A stretch of 32,917 nt of DNA from the NCBI GenBank assembly GCA_013153035.1, contig JAADFF010000024.1, positions 1 through 32,917 of the forward strand. The letters are read 5' to 3'. Shown one piece after another: positions 8,750 through 29,552 of the stretch. Within the stretch, counting starts at the first letter, position 1. Each line of letters begins with the position of its first letter. Position numbers and translations under genes: made by a program. This DNA is from Dictyoglomota bacterium (lineage in GTDB: Bacteria; Coprothermobacterota; Coprothermobacteria; Coprothermobacterales; JAADFF01). The notes beneath the pieces were generated by a model. The model ran no database searches and was not told the origin of the DNA. It saw only the letters and a list, made by a program, of their open reading frames with translations.

Positions 8750-11700
8750 TTGAGCATGTTGAAGAAGTTTTTGGTTATTATCATTTCCCTCTCGATGCTC
8801 TTTATGGGCATGAGTTTTGTTCCCCCTATGGTCAGGGCTGAGCAAACAACCCAGGCTGGACCAGCCCTAAAACTAAGAACAGGAATACCACCAAAACTTT
8901 CCGCGGCAAGTACTTATGGTACTACTGGATCTCGTCTTTATATTCTTCAGTTTACTGGTCCTGTTAAACCTGAATATAAGCAAGCTATTAAGGATCTTGG
9001 TATCCAGATTGGCGATTATATTCCAGACTTTGCATTTGTCGTTAAAGGCACAAAAGCTCAGATGCAGAAAGCTTTACAGTTGAGTTTTGTTAGCAATGTC
9101 TATGAATATAGGGCAAAGTATCGTATTTCTCCAGAAGCTATGCAGGCTATAAAATCTGGAGAGTATGACAAGGTTGTTGCATATGGTCCTATCGGTGATC
9201 TTTTACAAATTCAACAGATTCTTTCTTCTATGGGTATTACTGATTTCGATGACATGATCGAAGAGATGATAGAAATGGTCGAGCAGCTCTATGGGGAACC
9301 CGTTTACTGGATAGATATGAAGCCTCAGAATGTCATATTTAATGATGAGGCAGCAAAGCTTATCAAGGTTAACCCTGTAGCATGGACAGATTATGGTTAT
9401 CACGGAGAAAATCAGATTGTTGGTATTATGGATACAGGTCTCGATACGGGTAATGCTTCTACACTTCATCCAGATCTTAAAGATAGACTACTTAAAGCTT
9501 ATGCATATGGTAGATCTAATGATTGGTCTGATCCTAATGGACACGGAACACATGTTGCCGGTTCTGTAGTTGGTACAGGTGCTGCATCTGATGGCAAGAT
9601 AAAAGGTATGGCTTATGGCGCCAAGATTGTCTTCCAATCTGTTCTTGATTCTAATGGTGGCCTGGGCGGTTTACCAGATGATCTTAATGATGCATTCAAG
9701 GTAGCATATGATGATGGTGCTCGTATTCATACAAATTCTTGGGGATGTCCATATCAGTATTGTCAGAATAAGTACGATACACAGTCTTCTCAGGTGGATG
9801 AATTTATGTGGAATCATCCAGACATGACCATTCTCTTTGCAGCAGGTAATGACGGTGATTATGATAGAGATGGACAGGTTGAGTATAATACTGTTACTCC
9901 ACCATCTACTGCTAAGAACTGTATTACTGTTGGTGCTGCTGAAAACTATAGACCTGATAAAGGTTCTTATGCTGATAACCCTAATGATATAGCATTATTT
10001 TCTTCTCGTGGTTGGACCTCTGATGGCCGTATTAAACCTGATGTTGTAGCACCTGGTACCTGGATTCTATCTACTCGCTCTTCACTTGCTCCAGATGACC
10101 ATTTCTGGGGTAATTACAACCAGTACTATGCATATATGGGTGGTACTTCTATGGCCACACCTATTACTGCAGGTTTTACTGCTATTGTGAGACAGTGGCT
10201 TCAGAAGGCTAAAAATTATGACGATCCCTCCTCTTCCCTTATAAAGGCCCTCCTTATAGCAACAGCTAGACCACTTGGTGATGCAATTGTGTCTGCTGAC
10301 TATGGATGGGGCGAAGTTGATATGAATAATATTATGAATGGTAGCCTTATTCTTCTTGACGAAGCCCAGACAAAATCTCTTAGTACAGGTGATAGTTGGA
10401 CGTATACATTTGATGTTAATGATACTTCTAAACCTGTAAAGGTTGTCCTTGTCTGGAGAGACTATCCTGGTTCTCCACAAGCATCTTCTTATCTTGTAAA
10501 TGACCTTGATCTTACAGTAACAACTCCATCTGGCTCTTCCTATTATGGTAATCATATGCTTTATTCTTCTGCAGATAGAAAAAATAACGTTGAGGTTGTA
10601 TATATCTCTTCTCCTCAGAAGGGAACATATACCATTAAGGTTAAAGGCTATAATGTACCAGATGGTCCACAACCTTTTTCTGTTGTAGTTTTCTCCGGTG
10701 GAGCGACTTCTGGTGGTGGTAGTGAGGATACAGACAATCCACCAAGTGTAAGCTTTGCCAAGCCTGAGAATGGGGCAGTGGTAGATAAGACATTTGATGT
10801 AGAGATCAATGCATCTGATGATAAAGGTGTATCCAAAGTAGAGCTGTATGTCAACAGCACAGATGGAGATCCTATCAAGACATGGACAGAAGCACCATAT
10901 ACAATAACTCTTGATGCATCTAATGCCAGTGAAGGTGATTACAAGCTAATAGCTGTTGCCTATGACACAGCAGATCAGAAGTCGCAAGCTGAAATTACCA
11001 TTACCGTTAAACATGGTTCATCTGATACTACAGCGCCGTCTGTATCTATTACCTCTCCAAAGAATGGAGATACAGTTTCTGGAAAGATTACTGTCGAGGT
11101 TTCGGCATCCGACGATTCTTCTGGTGTGTCTAAGGTTGAATTATATGTAGATGGCAGTAAGGTGTCTGAGGATACATCTGCTCCGTATACATTCTCACTT
11201 GATACAACATCTCTTAGTGATGGTACCCATAAACTTCTTGCTAAGGCCTACGATGCTGCCGGTAATGTAGGTACATCTGAAGAGATAACAATTACTGTAA
11301 AGAATTCTTCTGAAGAGCCCCCTGCTGCTGCAACTGCTACTGCCGAAAGAGGCTATTTCGGTAAATTCTCATCTTCTGGTGATACAAAGTATTACTATAT
11401 CAACATAACAACGCAAACAGAGATAACAATTAAAGCTTACATGGAAAGCACACTGGATATGGATATCTATCTTATGAATAGTTCTGGTACTGTCCTTGCC
11501 AAATCTGAAAATGGTAAGGGAGAAGCAGAGTCCATCACTTATACATTATCACCCGGAGTATATAAGATCAAAGCTTATAACTATTCGGGCTATGGCTACT
11601 ATATCATCTATGTTGATAACAAGATTGATACGGCAAAGCAGGTATTTAAAACAATATCAGGTAGTGTTACAGATGGTGGTTCAAAAACTTACACTCTAAA

Positions 11701-11923
11701 TCTTAAAGGTATTACAGATATATATCTCGATTGGGGAGACAGCGATGTAGATCTTGATCTTTATGTCTACGATTCTTCTGGTAACTTGGTTGCCAAGTCT
11801 GAGTATGGAAAATATCACTGGGAAACATTGAATCTTAATCTCAGTGCTGGAACGTATACGATAGTGGTTAAGTCTTATAGTGGTGGTAGCGACTTTACAC
11901 TGAGTGTGCTTACAGACAAATAA
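8750..11923 (+). CDS. Secreted subtilisin-like (S8) serine protease with Ig-like and PPC domains
   Basis: A 1057-residue exported endopeptidase. The signal peptide covers about 1-30 (KK then a hydrophobic core, cleavage after VRA). Residues about 60-130 resemble an I9-type propeptide that must be removed. The S8 catalytic domain runs about 195-535 with Asp228 (IMDTGLDTG), His265 (NGHGTHVAGS), oxyanion-hole Asn367 (AAGNDG) and Ser467 (GGTSMATP). A beta-sandwich (about 540-650) follows, with VNDLDLTV as in large S8 proteases. Two bacterial Ig-like domains follow (about 663-757 and 760-857, each with SxVSKVELYV-type strands), then two prepeptidase C-terminal (PPC-like) domains (about 865-955 and 960-1055). 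No S-layer or sortase anchor is seen. It is monocistronic, with a perfect terminator 20 bases after the stop. The likely role is extracellular protein digestion; its repeat-rich upstream region suggests regulation. Confidence 0.95.
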   Translation: MSMLKKFLVIIISLSMLFMGMSFVPPMVRAEQTTQAGPALKLRTGIPPKLSAASTYGTTGSRLYILQFTGPVKPEYKQAIKDLGIQIGDYIPDFAFVVKGTKAQMQKALQLSFVSNVYEYRAKYRISPEAMQAIKSGEYDKVVAYGPIGDLLQIQQILSSMGITDFDDMIEEMIEMVEQLYGEPVYWIDMKPQNVIFNDEAAKLIKVNPVAWTDYGYHGENQIVGIMDTGLDTGNASTLHPDLKDRLLKAYAYGRSNDWSDPNGHGTHVAGSVVGTGAASDGKIKGMAYGAKIVFQSVLDSNGGLGGLPDDLNDAFKVAYDDGARIHTNSWGCPYQYCQNKYDTQSSQVDEFMWNHPDMTILFAAGNDGDYDRDGQVEYNTVTPPSTAKNCITVGAAENYRPDKGSYADNPNDIALFSSRGWTSDGRIKPDVVAPGTWILSTRSSLAPDDHFWGNYNQYYAYMGGTSMATPITAGFTAIVRQWLQKAKNYDDPSSSLIKALLIATARPLGDAIVSADYGWGEVDMNNIMNGSLILLDEAQTKSLSTGDSWTYTFDVNDTSKPVKVVLVWRDYPGSPQASSYLVNDLDLTVTTPSGSSYYGNHMLYSSADRKNNVEVVYISSPQKGTYTIKVKGYNVPDGPQPFSVVVFSGGATSGGGSEDTDNPPSVSFAKPENGAVVDKTFDVEINASDDKGVSKVELYVNSTDGDPIKTWTEAPYTITLDASNASEGDYKLIAVAYDTADQKSQAEITITVKHGSSDTTAPSVSITSPKNGDTVSGKITVEVSASDDSSGVSKVELYVDGSKVSEDTSAPYTFSLDTTSLSDGTHKLLAKAYDAAGNVGTSEEITITVKNSSEEPPAAATATAERGYFGKFSSSGDTKYYYINITTQTEITIKAYMESTLDMDIYLMNSSGTVLAKSENGKGEAESITYTLSPGVYKIKAYNYSGYGYYIIYVDNKIDTAKQVFKTISGSVTDGGSKTYTLNLKGITDIYLDWGDSDVDLDLYVYDSSGNLVAKSEYGKYHWETLNLNLSAGTYTIVVKSYSGGSDFTLSVLTDK

Positions 11924-19649: not shown

Positions 19650-20572
19650 TATTTCTTTTCCCCCGGATACTGTATGATGTAAACCCACTTGTATCGTTTA
19701 CCCCATTTTAGAGCTTCGGCTTTGGTGGGGAAGAATACATCAATGTGGTAGTACTTAATCCAACCTCCAACATCGACTGCGTCACCGTTGCCATAACCCT
19801 CTATATACAGCTTGCTGTGAAGTGGAATAAGTCTAGGATCTACTGCAACAACTCCTTTTCTTGCCCTGTCTCCTGTTGCAGTAACCCAGTCGACACCGGG
19901 ATCTTCTGGAGAATATGCTGTTATAAGTGCAATAAATTTCTTGATGTAGGGTCCATTGTAAATGTGAGGACCGCTTTTGAATATCCATGGTGTAGGTTTT
20001 TTAATGATCTTCTTTTCTGTCCATGTCTTGATAACTTTATCATCAAGTATGTACTTATATGTCACTATTTCCATTAGTCCGCCTTCAGCTTTCTGTAGCC
20101 TAATGACTTTGCCCGGTGGTAGATTTTTGTCGTAGTATACAACTTGCTTCCATATCAGTGGGGCCAGAGGTATAAGTTTGGCTTTTTTTTGTATCCACCC
20201 TTTACTAACAAATAGTGTTTTATTGTTTTTCCAGAAAATCTTATCCAGTGGGTTTATATCTATGCCTGCAATGCTAAGTAGTGTCTTTGTGCTGCTACCT
20301 GGAGATGTAAGAACGTGTACTGCATCTTCCTTTGTTTCGATCTTGTATTCTTTAACTTCTGTATCGTACATAATTGGGCATGAGTCTATGGTGTTTATGG
20401 GGAGTCCCGTTTTTTCTATAAATTCTTCTTCTGTTCTTGCAAATACATATCCGCTCTTTATGCCATCTAGTGTTATAGCACAGTAAAAGCGGGTATTTAA
20501 CACGCCAAATAATATGGCCCATGCTGTAAAGATAATGATGAGAATCCTTAATACACTACGAGCTATGTTCAC
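19649..20572 (-). CDS. YabE-like membrane-anchored G5/3D domain protein
   Basis: The predicted start is GTG 20572, overlapping the upstream stop (GTGA) with SD GGAGG in front; an ATG at 20587 lacks an SD. The product starts with a membrane anchor (ILIIIFTAWAILFGVL). About 160-205 resemble a G5 domain (VIRLQKAEGGLMEIVTYKYILD, then WTEKKIIKKPTP). The C-terminal 90 residues are a 3D domain: FIALITAYSPED, TATGDRARKGVVAVDPRLIPLHSKLYIEGYG, GDAVDVGG and HIDVFF supply the three Asp residues. The 3D fold is the double-psi barrel shared with MltA/RpfB-type peptidoglycan lytic enzymes, so it probably cleaves or remodels cell wall. Its position upstream of rsmA and ispE matches the Bacillus yabE-ksgA-ispE neighbourhood. 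Confidence 0.87.
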   Translation of the reverse strand: MNIARSVLRILIIIFTAWAILFGVLNTRFYCAITLDGIKSGYVFARTEEEFIEKTGLPINTIDSCPIMYDTEVKEYKIETKEDAVHVLTSPGSSTKTLLSIAGIDINPLDKIFWKNNKTLFVSKGWIQKKAKLIPLAPLIWKQVVYYDKNLPPGKVIRLQKAEGGLMEIVTYKYILDDKVIKTWTEKKIIKKPTPWIFKSGPHIYNGPYIKKFIALITAYSPEDPGVDWVTATGDRARKGVVAVDPRLIPLHSKLYIEGYGNGDAVDVGGWIKYYHIDVFFPTKAEALKWGKRYKWVYIIQYPGEKK

Positions 20573-21051
20573 CTTAATATCCTCCATCTTATGAGATATA
20601 CAGGATATGGTGATGGATTTATGCCCACATGAACACCGCCTACATTTTCATCTACCAGTGTCATAACATATACGAATGCTTCTGCCACATGACTGGCATC
20701 TACTGTAGAATTGGCCTCCCTTGGTAGAAGTATGGTGAGTTTTACTATAGCTACTCCGTTCATGTAGCTTGTGTTTAATTGTTCTACTTGTATTTTGGCA
20801 GTGTGCCCGTTGGGTAGCGTTGTTGATGTTTCGGATATTATGTTTGGGTAGTAATTAGCTGATGTCCAAACAACTCCATACTCTACAGCGGATTCTATAT
20901 CTTGCATAAGGAGGGTCGATGTTCTCACCGAGATATTGAGTTTGTTTTCTTGTACCACATAGTCAAGTAATATTGCTGATAGAAGCCCGAGTATAAATAT
21001 GATTATTAATGTAATAATAAGAGTTGAACCCTTCTGATTTTTTATGGACAT
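20569..21051 (-). CDS. Pilin-like protein without Glu5 (PilX/GspK-type N-terminus)
   Basis: 160 residues. The N-terminus is KNQKG followed by STLIITLIIIFILGLLSAIL: a short basic leader ending in Gly and a long hydrophobic helix, as cleaved by prepilin peptidase. Position 5 after the cleavage site is Ile rather than Glu, as in some minor pilins that sit at the pilus tip (PilX/GspK). The remainder is a small Ser/Thr-rich beta region with no recognised domain. It overlaps the preceding Glu5-containing pilin-like gene by 10 bases and the next gene by 4, so the pair probably acts together. No assembly ATPase or platform protein is in the window, so the machine is encoded elsewhere. Confidence 0.7.
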   Translation of the reverse strand: MSIKNQKGSTLIITLIIIFILGLLSAILLDYVVQENKLNISVRTSTLLMQDIESAVEYGVVWTSANYYPNIISETSTTLPNGHTAKIQVEQLNTSYMNGVAIVKLTILLPREANSTVDASHVAEAFVYVMTLVDENVGGVHVGINPSPYPVYLIRWRILR

Positions 21052-21950
21052 GCTCCTGTCACCTCAATGTAAGGGCTAATACCTGTTATATTTTGAAAGT
21101 CTTGCATGGTGTACCCGTCATAGCTTTCTATGATATCTGAGTCTTTGAATGTTATTGTACAGATAGAAGGGGACACTTGACTGTTTATCGACACAGACAG
21201 CTGTAAGATAGAAGGATTGTTATTTACTAATGAGCCACTATTTATTGTTGTAGGATACCCACCACAGTTGATATCAAGGTACTCGTCTGGATTGCTAATA
21301 TTAGGTTTGTCTTTTATAGGTTGTGTGAAGTAAAGGTATATGATTTTCCCCTGTGTGGCGCTAATGGTATTTTCATCAAAGCATGCAATAGGTAGGGCAA
21401 AAGGTGCTGTTAATTTTGTCATACCAACGGTACCAGATATTGTTTGATTATCTTGGATAGTAGCTGTATATGCAATAGTGAGGTTGGAAAAGGGTTTGTA
21501 ATCTGCCTGAACATTGCTAAAGGTTTTGTCTCCGTAAAATAGTTTTATACTCTCAATATGAACACCTGGTATATCGGGATATATCCTCCCATCTTCTAGG
21601 GCTATATAGGTGTTTTCGTTTGTTATAGATAATTGCTTGAGAGAGAGTTGTCTTGTTATATCTTTAGAAGTGCTAAAAGACGTAGCGGTATAGATGGATA
21701 AGTGAGATATGTTAGTTGAATTTCTATCTTCATCTGTTTGTGTACATACGGCAAATTTCATAGGATATAGGGCGTCGATGAATCGGCTATTTGCTAAGTA
21801 TGTGGCTTCTGCTTTGCTCGTAGCGGATGGGGTTTCAATGAAAGTAGTTTTTAGTAAGCTTATTGTCATTGGTACAAGTGCAATGGTTAGTATGGAAACT
21901 ATAATAATCACTACCAATAGTTCAATGAGTGTGTAGCCGCTATTTTTCAT
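21042..21950 (-). CDS. Prepilin-type N-terminal cleavage/methylation protein (PilW-like minor pilin)
   Basis: The product begins MKNSG then YTLIELLVVIIIVSILTIAL, the classic type IV/type II secretion prepilin motif with Gly before the cut and Glu at +5. After the helix (to about residue 32) comes a 270-residue beta-rich part with few Cys (one near the middle, ACFD, and CP at the end). Such proteins are minor pilins or pseudopilins. It starts one base after the mnmG stop and is followed by the PilX-like gene, the usual order PilW then PilX. A role in pili, DNA uptake or secretion is inferred from the family only. Confidence 0.78.
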   Translation of the reverse strand: MKNSGYTLIELLVVIIIVSILTIALVPMTISLLKTTFIETPSATSKAEATYLANSRFIDALYPMKFAVCTQTDEDRNSTNISHLSIYTATSFSTSKDITRQLSLKQLSITNENTYIALEDGRIYPDIPGVHIESIKLFYGDKTFSNVQADYKPFSNLTIAYTATIQDNQTISGTVGMTKLTAPFALPIACFDENTISATQGKIIYLYFTQPIKDKPNISNPDEYLDINCGGYPTTINSGSLVNNNPSILQLSVSINSQVSPSICTITFKDSDIIESYDGYTMQDFQNITGISPYIEVTGACP

Positions 21951-26859: not shown

Positions 26860-26897
26860 ATTTCTTCCTCCTTTCTATGTTTATTGAAGGGTATCTA

Positions 26898-26906
26898 TGA
26901 TACCAT
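26898..26906 (+). promoter_or_regulatory. Extended -10 promoter of cheW
   Basis: TGATACCAT (TGn plus TACCAT), 33 bases before the GTG at 26940. It overlaps the dyad GGTATC-TAT-GATACC (26890-26904), the most perfect of the dyads at these promoters and situated between divergent xapX and cheW. No clear -35. Confidence 0.45.
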
Positions 26907-26939
26907 ATTTATAGATATATGAGGGAATGAAAGGGGGTA

Positions 26940-27392
26940 GTGGCCTTGGAAAGACAGGTAGTTGTCTTTAAATTAGGAGAGAAGGAGTATGCAATTGATA
27001 TTTTAGAAGTACAGGAGATTCAGCGTTACATAGAACCCACAGAGGTGCCTAATGCACCATCATTTGTTAAGGGTATCATCAATCTCAGAGGTGAAATTAT
27101 TCCAATCTTTGACATCAACGAACGTTTTGGGAAGCCCCCTGTACAGATAGACGAAGGAACTAAGATTATAATTGTCATGGTTGGTGATCGAAAGGCTGGC
27201 TTTATTGTCAATGATGTTCATGAAGTGCTCCGTATCTCTACAGATATGATTTCCCAAGTCCCTGATACTATAGGTGGTAGGGTTAGGGAGTTTCTTAAAG
27301 GTGTCATCAAGTATCAGGATAGACTCATACTGTGGATAGATGTCGAAAAGCTATTCTCAGAGGAAGAAAAAGAGGCTTTAGCTCAAATCTAG
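26940..27392 (+). CDS. cheW: Chemotaxis coupling protein CheW
   Basis: Cytoplasmic adaptor that links methyl-accepting receptors to the CheA kinase. 150 residues containing only the CheW SH3-like domain: VVFKLGEKEYAIDILEVQEI, then VPNAPSFVKGIINLRGEIIPIFDINERFG, the hallmark G-xNLRGxIIPxxD core, then FIVNDVHEVLRI and FLKGVIKYQDRLILWIDVEKLF at the end. GTG start at 26940 with SD AAAGGGGG. No cheA, receptor, cheY or flagellar gene is in the window, so this is an isolated cheW. Two polytopic membrane protein genes follow directly, the first 36 bases on, probably in one operon. Confidence 0.97.
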   Translation: MALERQVVVFKLGEKEYAIDILEVQEIQRYIEPTEVPNAPSFVKGIINLRGEIIPIFDINERFGKPPVQIDEGTKIIIVMVGDRKAGFIVNDVHEVLRISTDMISQVPDTIGGRVREFLKGVIKYQDRLILWIDVEKLFSEEEKEALAQI

Positions 27393-27428
27393 TGTTTTTT
27401 ATTGTCTTTGGCGAAGGGAGAGGGGAAT

Positions 27429-28811
27429 ATGGTGGCATATGTCCTTGCTTATGGTGAGCTTTTTGTTTCTACAGCTTTGTTTTTTTATTGGGTAACACAA
27501 TATGAAGTATCTGCTATGCTTCTTGCAGGTCTCCTAATGGCTACAGTATATGGACTTGCCTCTGTATTGTGGATGCACTATAGAAAAGATAAAAACTTGT
27601 ATAGAGATATCTTGATTCCTGTTATGGGCTTTTTTACAATATCTCAGGCTTTCCTATTTAAAGATTCTATATTAGGATGGTATTTCTACATTGTATTATC
27701 TCTATTGGCGGCGTTTATATTTAAAGGATGGTTCAGTAAAAAGGAAATAAAAAAGTCTCTGATGGTTTTACTGCCTGTAGTGCTTCTTATGATGTATCAG
27801 GTATATTTACTCTTTTCATCTATTGCACAGCAGGGAGGATTGTTACAGGGTCAAATATGGCATAACTTCAGTGTGGTTAAGAGTACGATCGAGGGGATGG
27901 CATTGCACCCTGAATATCAATTTATAGCTGCTACAGTTGCCTTGGTATTTATTGCATTTGGGGTGTTTCCATTTTCATGGCTTCGGGATAAAGATTATAT
28001 AGTTATTGGTCCTGCATTTGGATATGTGGCGTATGCTCTTGTTTACAGACTTCTTGTTAACGCATCGTATTCATTGCCGGATAATTTTTCCCATTTGTCT
28101 ATCCTATTTCTTATGGTTTTAGGAGCATTAGTTGTTATGTCATTTAACCTAAGTAGGTTTTATTCTGTATATGCTCTTGTTCCTATATATGCCATATCTC
28201 TTACAACAGGAAAAATAGACTTTGAAGGATTTTTCGTATGGGCATTTTTCCTCTTTATTATTGCCATGTCAATTACCCCTACAATGGATAGTCGTTGGGC
28301 CCTGTGGCATATGGCCGGTGGTCCATTGGGCATGGCTTTCTGGGGTATATGGATGGTAATGCTTAGTTTATATGGTATGGGATTTCACCTTGATTGGTGG
28401 CTCATGCTCTTGTTCTGGCTGGCAATGCTCAGTGAATTTACACGTATACGTATGAAGGATATGAATATTACAGATGAAATGGTGTTGCAGTGGATGGAGA
28501 ATGCTTCACTGAAGGACATGATAAAATCTTCGATGCCTGGCCTTATTATGTCTTTCCTTTCTATATTCATAGGTTGGTGGGGACTGTATGTTGTCAGTTT
28601 TACCCACGGTCCTGTAAGACCATATAACCTGTCTCTTTTATCAATAAAATTACCGTTTGGTGATGTTAATACCCCTGTCTCGGCTTTGGTAGTACTAAAT
28701 ATGGTTGTTATAGCCCTTATGTGGTTGGGTATTTGGTACTCTGTTTGGGAGTCATTTGTAGAAAAACAGCGTATCTCCTCCGATGAAATGGTAGGTGATA
28801 ATCATGAGTAA
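27429..28811 (+). CDS. Polytopic membrane protein of unknown function
   Basis: 460 residues, about 12 hydrophobic helices, many Trp and Phe, a short polar C-terminus. Start set at ATG 27429, preceded by GGGAGAGGGGAAT; a TTG at 27402 lacks an SD. I do not recognise the family. One stretch, FGVFPFSWLRDKDYIVIGPAFGYVAYALVYRLL (about 177-209), vaguely recalls the PFHxWL...RLL pattern of NuoM/NuoN/MrpD antiporter subunits. The conserved Lys and Glu of those pumps are not obvious, so the resemblance is weak. A cytoplasmic-looking loop (RIRMKDMNITDEMVLQWMENA, in parts) lies near residues 338-365. It follows cheW by 36 bases and overlaps the next membrane gene by 8, indicating co-translation of the two membrane proteins. 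Confidence 0.75.
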   Translation: MVAYVLAYGELFVSTALFFYWVTQYEVSAMLLAGLLMATVYGLASVLWMHYRKDKNLYRDILIPVMGFFTISQAFLFKDSILGWYFYIVLSLLAAFIFKGWFSKKEIKKSLMVLLPVVLLMMYQVYLLFSSIAQQGGLLQGQIWHNFSVVKSTIEGMALHPEYQFIAATVALVFIAFGVFPFSWLRDKDYIVIGPAFGYVAYALVYRLLVNASYSLPDNFSHLSILFLMVLGALVVMSFNLSRFYSVYALVPIYAISLTTGKIDFEGFFVWAFFLFIIAMSITPTMDSRWALWHMAGGPLGMAFWGIWMVMLSLYGMGFHLDWWLMLLFWLAMLSEFTRIRMKDMNITDEMVLQWMENASLKDMIKSSMPGLIMSFLSIFIGWWGLYVVSFTHGPVRPYNLSLLSIKLPFGDVNTPVSALVVLNMVVIALMWLGIWYSVWESFVEKQRISSDEMVGDNHE

Positions 28812-29490
28812 GATGTTGCTGATGCTTTTTGCTCCTGTGATAGCTACTTTTGTGGGTTTTATTCCTGTTATTATTTTCCACATAAAATATCTTTCCTCAG
28901 CTCATGCGTCTTGGTGGAGACCTAATCATAATGCGTATCTTGGTCTTCTTTCTCTTATTACAGCTAATACCTTACTTATTATGGCAGATCCTGATCTACG
29001 TATATACAGCGACTTTATAATGTTTATATTATTTTATGCGTTGGGAGTTATGCTTGCTATTCCTCCTAATAAAATGCTTTCACGAAGGATTGCTGGTTTG
29101 GGATTATATATCATAGGTGTGACAGCTTATATATCACATTTATACGGTGGTAGAGGGACTGTTCCTGCACTAACATTTAATCAGATGTGGTTATATCAAA
29201 ATAAAATGGGAATGAACGTTTTTCACTTTTCCTCCGTAATAGCCGTTTATGTGCTTGGTGGTATTGTTCTATTTAGTGGTATAAGATTTGCTATTGGAAG
29301 AGACGATATTCTGACGGAGGCATTAATTGTTGCTGGATATAGTCTGTTTGGTGCTTATATGTATTTTGGCGGAAAGTCCCTTTTTGTGATGTTGATATTT
29401 GCTCTTATATTTGCTTTCGTTGTTTATGGGCTTAGTGAGCTTGTGGTACTTCTTATCTGGTCATTTACGGGTAGACGCCTTGAAGATTAA
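28804..29490 (+). CDS. Small polytopic membrane protein of unknown function
   Basis: 228 residues with about seven predicted helices. The start is ATG 28804 with AGGTGAT in front; it overlaps the stop of the previous gene by 8 bases (ATGAGTAA). A GTG at 28795 is within the SD. The sequence contains WWRPNHNAYLG (about 38-48) in the first long loop, and a polar stretch LYGGRGTVPALTFNQMWLYQNKMG near the middle, given the several charged and aromatic residues a possible binding surface. No family recognised. A terminator follows 30 bases after the stop, closing the cheW operon. Together with the 460-residue protein it may form a two-subunit membrane complex. Confidence 0.72.
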   Translation: MSKMLLMLFAPVIATFVGFIPVIIFHIKYLSSAHASWWRPNHNAYLGLLSLITANTLLIMADPDLRIYSDFIMFILFYALGVMLAIPPNKMLSRRIAGLGLYIIGVTAYISHLYGGRGTVPALTFNQMWLYQNKMGMNVFHFSSVIAVYVLGGIVLFSGIRFAIGRDDILTEALIVAGYSLFGAYMYFGGKSLFVMLIFALIFAFVVYGLSELVVLLIWSFTGRRLED

Positions 29491-29519: not shown

Positions 29520-29552
29520 AGCGGGCGGTTATCTGCCCGCTTTATTTTTATT
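29520..29552 (+). terminator. Rho-independent terminator of the cheW operon
   Basis: AGCGGGC (29520-29526) pairs with GCCCGCT (29535-29541), extendable by two inner pairs to a 4-base TTAT loop, followed by TTTATTTTTATT. Confidence 0.9.

Follow-up and report, generated by a model that had tools for sequence, protein, structure and literature searches.

Why a cheW gene should head a unit whose two other genes encode large polytopic membrane proteins, with no receptor, kinase or flagellar gene beside it, is the question raised by the DNA analysed here, a window of 32,917 nucleotides that constitutes contig C93 in the draft genome (1.43 Mb, completeness 93.8%) of a Dictyoglomota bacterium. The features of the unit, compared with the one congener in which it was also found, are as follows.

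26881-26918, strand not assigned: conserved block with the palindrome GGTATCTATGATACC, probable promoter/operator; 38 nt identical in the congener.
26946-27392, plus strand: cheW, coupling protein of 148 aa; PF01584, E 3.4e-41.
27429-28811, plus strand: TM1, 460-aa polytopic membrane protein with about 14 TM helices; ATG start, 83% identity in the congener.
28804-29490, plus strand: TM2, 228-aa polytopic membrane protein with about 7 TM helices; ATG start, 87% identity in the congener.
29520-29541, plus strand: rho-independent terminator hairpin of the cheW-TM1-TM2 unit; stem GCGGGC/GCCCGC, T-rich tail.

The description of the locus in the initial annotation, a cheW followed by 460- and 228-residue polytopic proteins with overlapping frames in one unit, was borne out by the frames (3/3 present in the window), by the spacing, with 36 nt separating cheW from TM1, and by the overlap of the first 8 nt of TM2 with the end of TM1, which is kept in both species. 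The TTG at 26946 is more likely the start of cheW than the alternative GTG at 26940 because of its spacing from the ribosome-binding site and the sequence of the congener. It had also been proposed that the unit has its own promoter and terminator; the terminator stands, with the hairpin stem and T tail conserved in the congener, while for the promoter a sigma-70 consensus scan listed no candidate upstream of cheW, leaving the conserved 38-nt block as its probable site. This block lies between cheW and a small divergent gene, and is unchanged between two species with dS near 1 while the flanking intergenic bases differ. The identity of all 38 nt, palindrome included, between the two species makes it likely that 26881-26918 contains a regulatory element. 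The small divergent gene (67 aa, DUF1427/PF07235; 26656-26859, minus strand) has its upstream region in common with cheW, and perhaps the block also serves as its promoter/operator. Spacing, the conserved upstream block and the terminator together suggest that cheW, TM1 and TM2 are co-transcribed.

The absence of receptor, kinase and flagellar genes holds for the window but not for the genome, such that the orphan status of cheW is a local one. Of the three CheW-domain proteins encoded in the genome, one is the window CheW and the other two, a CheW and the only CheA found, are products of adjacent genes on contig C62; the CheA has Hpt, P2, dimerisation, ATPase (HATPase) and CheW domains. The same genome encodes FliG, flagellin and 12 matches to the MCP signalling domain (MCPsignal), one of them, at 35 bits, only a short fragment; at 93.8% completeness the draft assembly may lack further che genes. 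Flagellar and CheY transcripts are among those reported from Coprothermobacter proteolyticus by meta-omics (PMC6988822).

In a Pfam search the window CheW scored 140.5 bits with PF01584 (curated cut-off 23.5) and covered positions 1-137 of the 138 in the profile, a full-length domain; a CheA kinase and receptors to couple are encoded in the same genome. Judged by its sequence it is a good coupling protein, with binding to CheA P5 and to receptor tips predicted from the family. Window and congener cheW are 98% identical at the protein level with a dN/dS of 0.008, making cheW the slowest-evolving gene among those measured and therefore not a decaying spare. Since it shares only about 30% identity with its paralogue on C62, the two are not recent duplicates. 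Four sister-family genomes (G001, G002, G003, G005) have two stand-alone CheWs and one was found in a fifth (G004). With stand-alone CheWs of relatives it shares 22-34% identity, and 22-28% with the second CheW of the sister family; the CheW tree is poorly resolved (tree and identities leave out the wrong-frame row G003_W1). Neither sister-family CheW is clearly its orthologue, and the role of the window CheW could therefore be special.

An additional CheW encoded away from the che cluster is a known arrangement. Agrobacterium fabrum is described as having one CheA and two CheWs, both encoded outside the che cluster and both important for chemotaxis, for which receptor preferences have been proposed (PMC12654446), while for Geobacter many CheWs per genome are described, and it has been suggested that the additional ones make room for more receptors (PMC2577667). 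The likeness to CheW1 and CheW2 of A. fabrum lies in one CheA, more than one CheW with at least one away from cheA, and many receptors; the difference is in the company of the extra cheW, which here shares its unit, as first gene, with two uncharacterised membrane proteins rather than with a receptor gene.

Judged by the dN/dS values of cheW and of its two neighbours against the congener (0.064 for TM1 and 0.055 for TM2), all three are real genes, and strong purifying selection on TM1 and TM2 is evident from the comparison of the two known species. TM1 is predicted by the positive-inside rule to have its N-terminus inside (K+R 14 vs 5, with helix limits set by hand) and contains a conserved loop of about 24 residues, 342-365, predicted to be cytoplasmic. 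The checks for remote homology called for at the outset matched neither protein to a known family. The window TM1 had no Pfam match at E<=10 (its congener counterpart had two sub-threshold matches), TM2 had none above cut-off, and against NCBIfam neither gave anything usable, TM1 having no match at E<=1. The assignment of TM2 to the Shr3 chaperone family PF08229 was rejected at 16.5 bits (also 16.6 and 15.7) against a curated cut-off of 25. A PHROGs search of the pair gave nothing usable (best E 0.021), the PDB sequences contained no relatives, and a few phrasings put to the open-access literature returned no description of such a pair. AlphaFold2 models from two-row alignments had mean pLDDT of 39.8 (TM1) and 47.9, too poor to use, such that the lack of Foldseek matches in the PDB at E<=0.001 is evidence neither way.

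TM1 was found in two of the nine genomes of the phylum, its own and the congener. In the wide set of 386 genomes there were three with matches, the third (G376) being treated as chance with 18 bits over 80 residues and four in-frame stops. TM2 was found in 2/41 and 2/386 genomes, a second match to it in G006 (19 bits, nine in-frame stops) being set aside. A peptide-pattern scan of a contig collection covering 84,980 species returned the congener only, with patterns that were made from one sequence and so reach close relatives only, and viral contigs held no relatives of the pair. Among the 386 genomes TM1 and TM2 are restricted to the genus, apart from the 18-bit match with stops. The sister-family genomes lack TM1 and TM2, so the pair is also absent beside their cheW genes. 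In the three genomes read (3/3), the region preceding the best sister-family match to ClpC likewise lacks the pair and contains, on the other strand, a gene cluster that resembles an ABC transporter in sequence and is dissimilar to TM1 and TM2.

As to conservation of the neighbourhood, cheW and the pair are adjacent in the congener, within a longer collinear stretch in which 20 window frames between 8.7 and 32.9 kb were matched, all in one order (the comparison lists matched frames only). Because the whole shared stretch is collinear, the adjacency carries little weight and is not independent evidence of a link. Within the window, clpC is 94.5% identical to its congener counterpart with a dN/dS of 0.036. 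In the longer contig of the congener, clpC and a malic-enzyme-like gene are followed (L011, 2578-5345) by three further genes: one CheC/CheX-like, one unassigned, and one for a Cache-HAMP membrane protein that ends after HAMP and lacks the MCP signalling domain. Elsewhere in the window, the frame at 8750-11923 encodes a protein of 1057 aa whose sequence resembles that of a secreted protease of the subtilisin type carrying repeated domains at the C-terminus.

If the membrane pair were a non-MCP sensor, for example of membrane energisation, it would report to the array by binding the CheW encoded with it. In keeping with this are the shared transcription unit with its conserved upstream block and terminator, the strong conservation of CheW, and the loop at 342-365 of TM1, which could be a contact site. 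A tidy three-gene unit of this kind would also fit a functional link. Methyl-accepting chemotaxis proteins (PF00015) are likewise membrane proteins encoded beside cheW, but they have one or two TM helices and the MCP signalling domain, whereas TM1 and TM2 are polytopic and gave no PF00015 match at E<=1 or E<=10, and were accordingly rejected as members of that family. Pfam identified in them no other known signalling domain and no signalling hairpin. The linkage, moreover, is seen only in two congeners whose shared stretch is collinear throughout, and the pair is missing from the sister-family genomes. The earlier suggestion that the pair reports a membrane state to the array thus found nothing in its favour beyond co-directional spacing, and we regard such a sensor as very unlikely; that TM1-TM2 is a new non-MCP sensor complex feeding the array through a CheW dedicated to it we consider more improbable still.

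The other suggestion made for the pair was that TM1 has a weak resemblance to antiporter subunits, in which case it would be a far-diverged relative of NuoL/M/N or MrpA/D and, with TM2 as partner, would form a small cation/proton-translocating complex. Like the antiporter subunits of complex I, Mrp and membrane hydrogenases (PF00361), TM1 has the appropriate size and some 14 predicted helices, and residues 178-211 resemble, by eye, the PF..WLPD motif of these subunits. The resemblance fails profile tests. At E<=10, PF00361 gave five true matches in the genome and none in TM1, and in hmmsearch with two home-made profiles, one built from 39 mostly NuoL-like sequences and one from 20 fetched sequences mostly of NuoN/MrpD length together with the subunits of the genome itself, TM1 ranked below shuffles, the controls comprising shuffled, reversed and unrelated polytopic proteins. 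The second profile recovered 39/39 antiporters of the first set, a positive control in which a few subunits of the genome itself occur in both sets. With hhalign the probabilities were 0.3-1.8%; against the first profile TM1 was the highest of all queries (1.8%), a value still insignificant with five unrelated controls. With the positive control passed, TM1 was rejected as a PF00361 subunit on sequence-profile grounds, and no hydrogenase, Nuo or Mrp genes were seen linked to it in the window. As the TM1 family consists of two sequences only, a far-diverged relation keeps a small probability.

A second resemblance, of TM1 90-155 to NuoK, appeared as weak matches in one register to several NuoKs that are related to each other (best E 0.035). 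The likeness to NuoK/MrpC likewise gained no support, for the score fell with a better profile of 36 sequences and was reached by 9/200 shuffles; hhalign gave a probability of 0.9%, and the 12 best hmmsearch scores shown all belonged to shuffles. Taken together these results make an antiporter-like complex quite unlikely. Two clusters elsewhere in the genome (G000, contigs C10 and C52; L112 and L114) resemble membrane-bound hydrogenase/Mrp-like complexes in sequence, and in one of them two antiporter-like subunits are fused in a protein of about 1050 residues.

A different possibility concerns CheW itself, which might serve the output of type IV pili and not the flagellum. In the three sister-family genomes with enough flank (3/3; G001, G002 and G005) three prepilin-like genes immediately precede the extra cheW, and TM1 and TM2 are absent; the positions are as follows.

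L045, 6887-7312: extra cheW of the sister family, behind three prepilin-like genes.
L046, 7300-7722: extra cheW of the sister family, behind three prepilin-like genes.
L047, 6696-7127: extra cheW of the sister family, behind three prepilin-like genes.

This adjacency hints that chemosensory signalling and type IV pili are connected in the sister family, where an N_methyl domain was confirmed for one of the prepilin-like genes (L046). The window itself has two prepilin-like genes some 5 kb away from cheW, of which 21042-21950 has an N_methyl match while 20569-21051 has no Pfam match. These two are, however, on the other strand and separated from cheW by four genes and the small divergent gene, and only one CheA was found. 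Given also that orthology of the window CheW to the second CheW of the sister family is not settled at the identities found, a role in pilus output appears unlikely, if less so than the readings of the membrane pair set out above.

The reading that we consider reasonably probable is that the unit combines an auxiliary CheW for the one flagellar chemosensory array with a co-transcribed, genus-restricted membrane complex that is maybe unrelated to taxis. The window CheW would act as second coupling protein in one flagellar chemosensory system that is complete, its CheA and other CheW being encoded elsewhere in the genome. From knowledge of the family and of known two-CheW systems, its most likely place is in the receptor-CheA baseplate, where, by the same reasoning, it would link some of the receptors to the one CheA. 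TM1 and TM2 are predicted to be translationally coupled and are probably parts of one heteromeric membrane complex, the 8-nt overlap being the observation that suggests this; such a complex would more likely be transporter-like than a receptor, and direct contact between CheW and TM1 or TM2 is not expected.

For the lineage, probably Coprothermobacterota, the analysis documents one CheA with two stand-alone CheWs and many receptors. Beside one of these CheWs is a genus-restricted polytopic pair recognised by no library searched and, if this pair did signal through CheW, it would provide bacterial chemosensory arrays with an input of a new kind.
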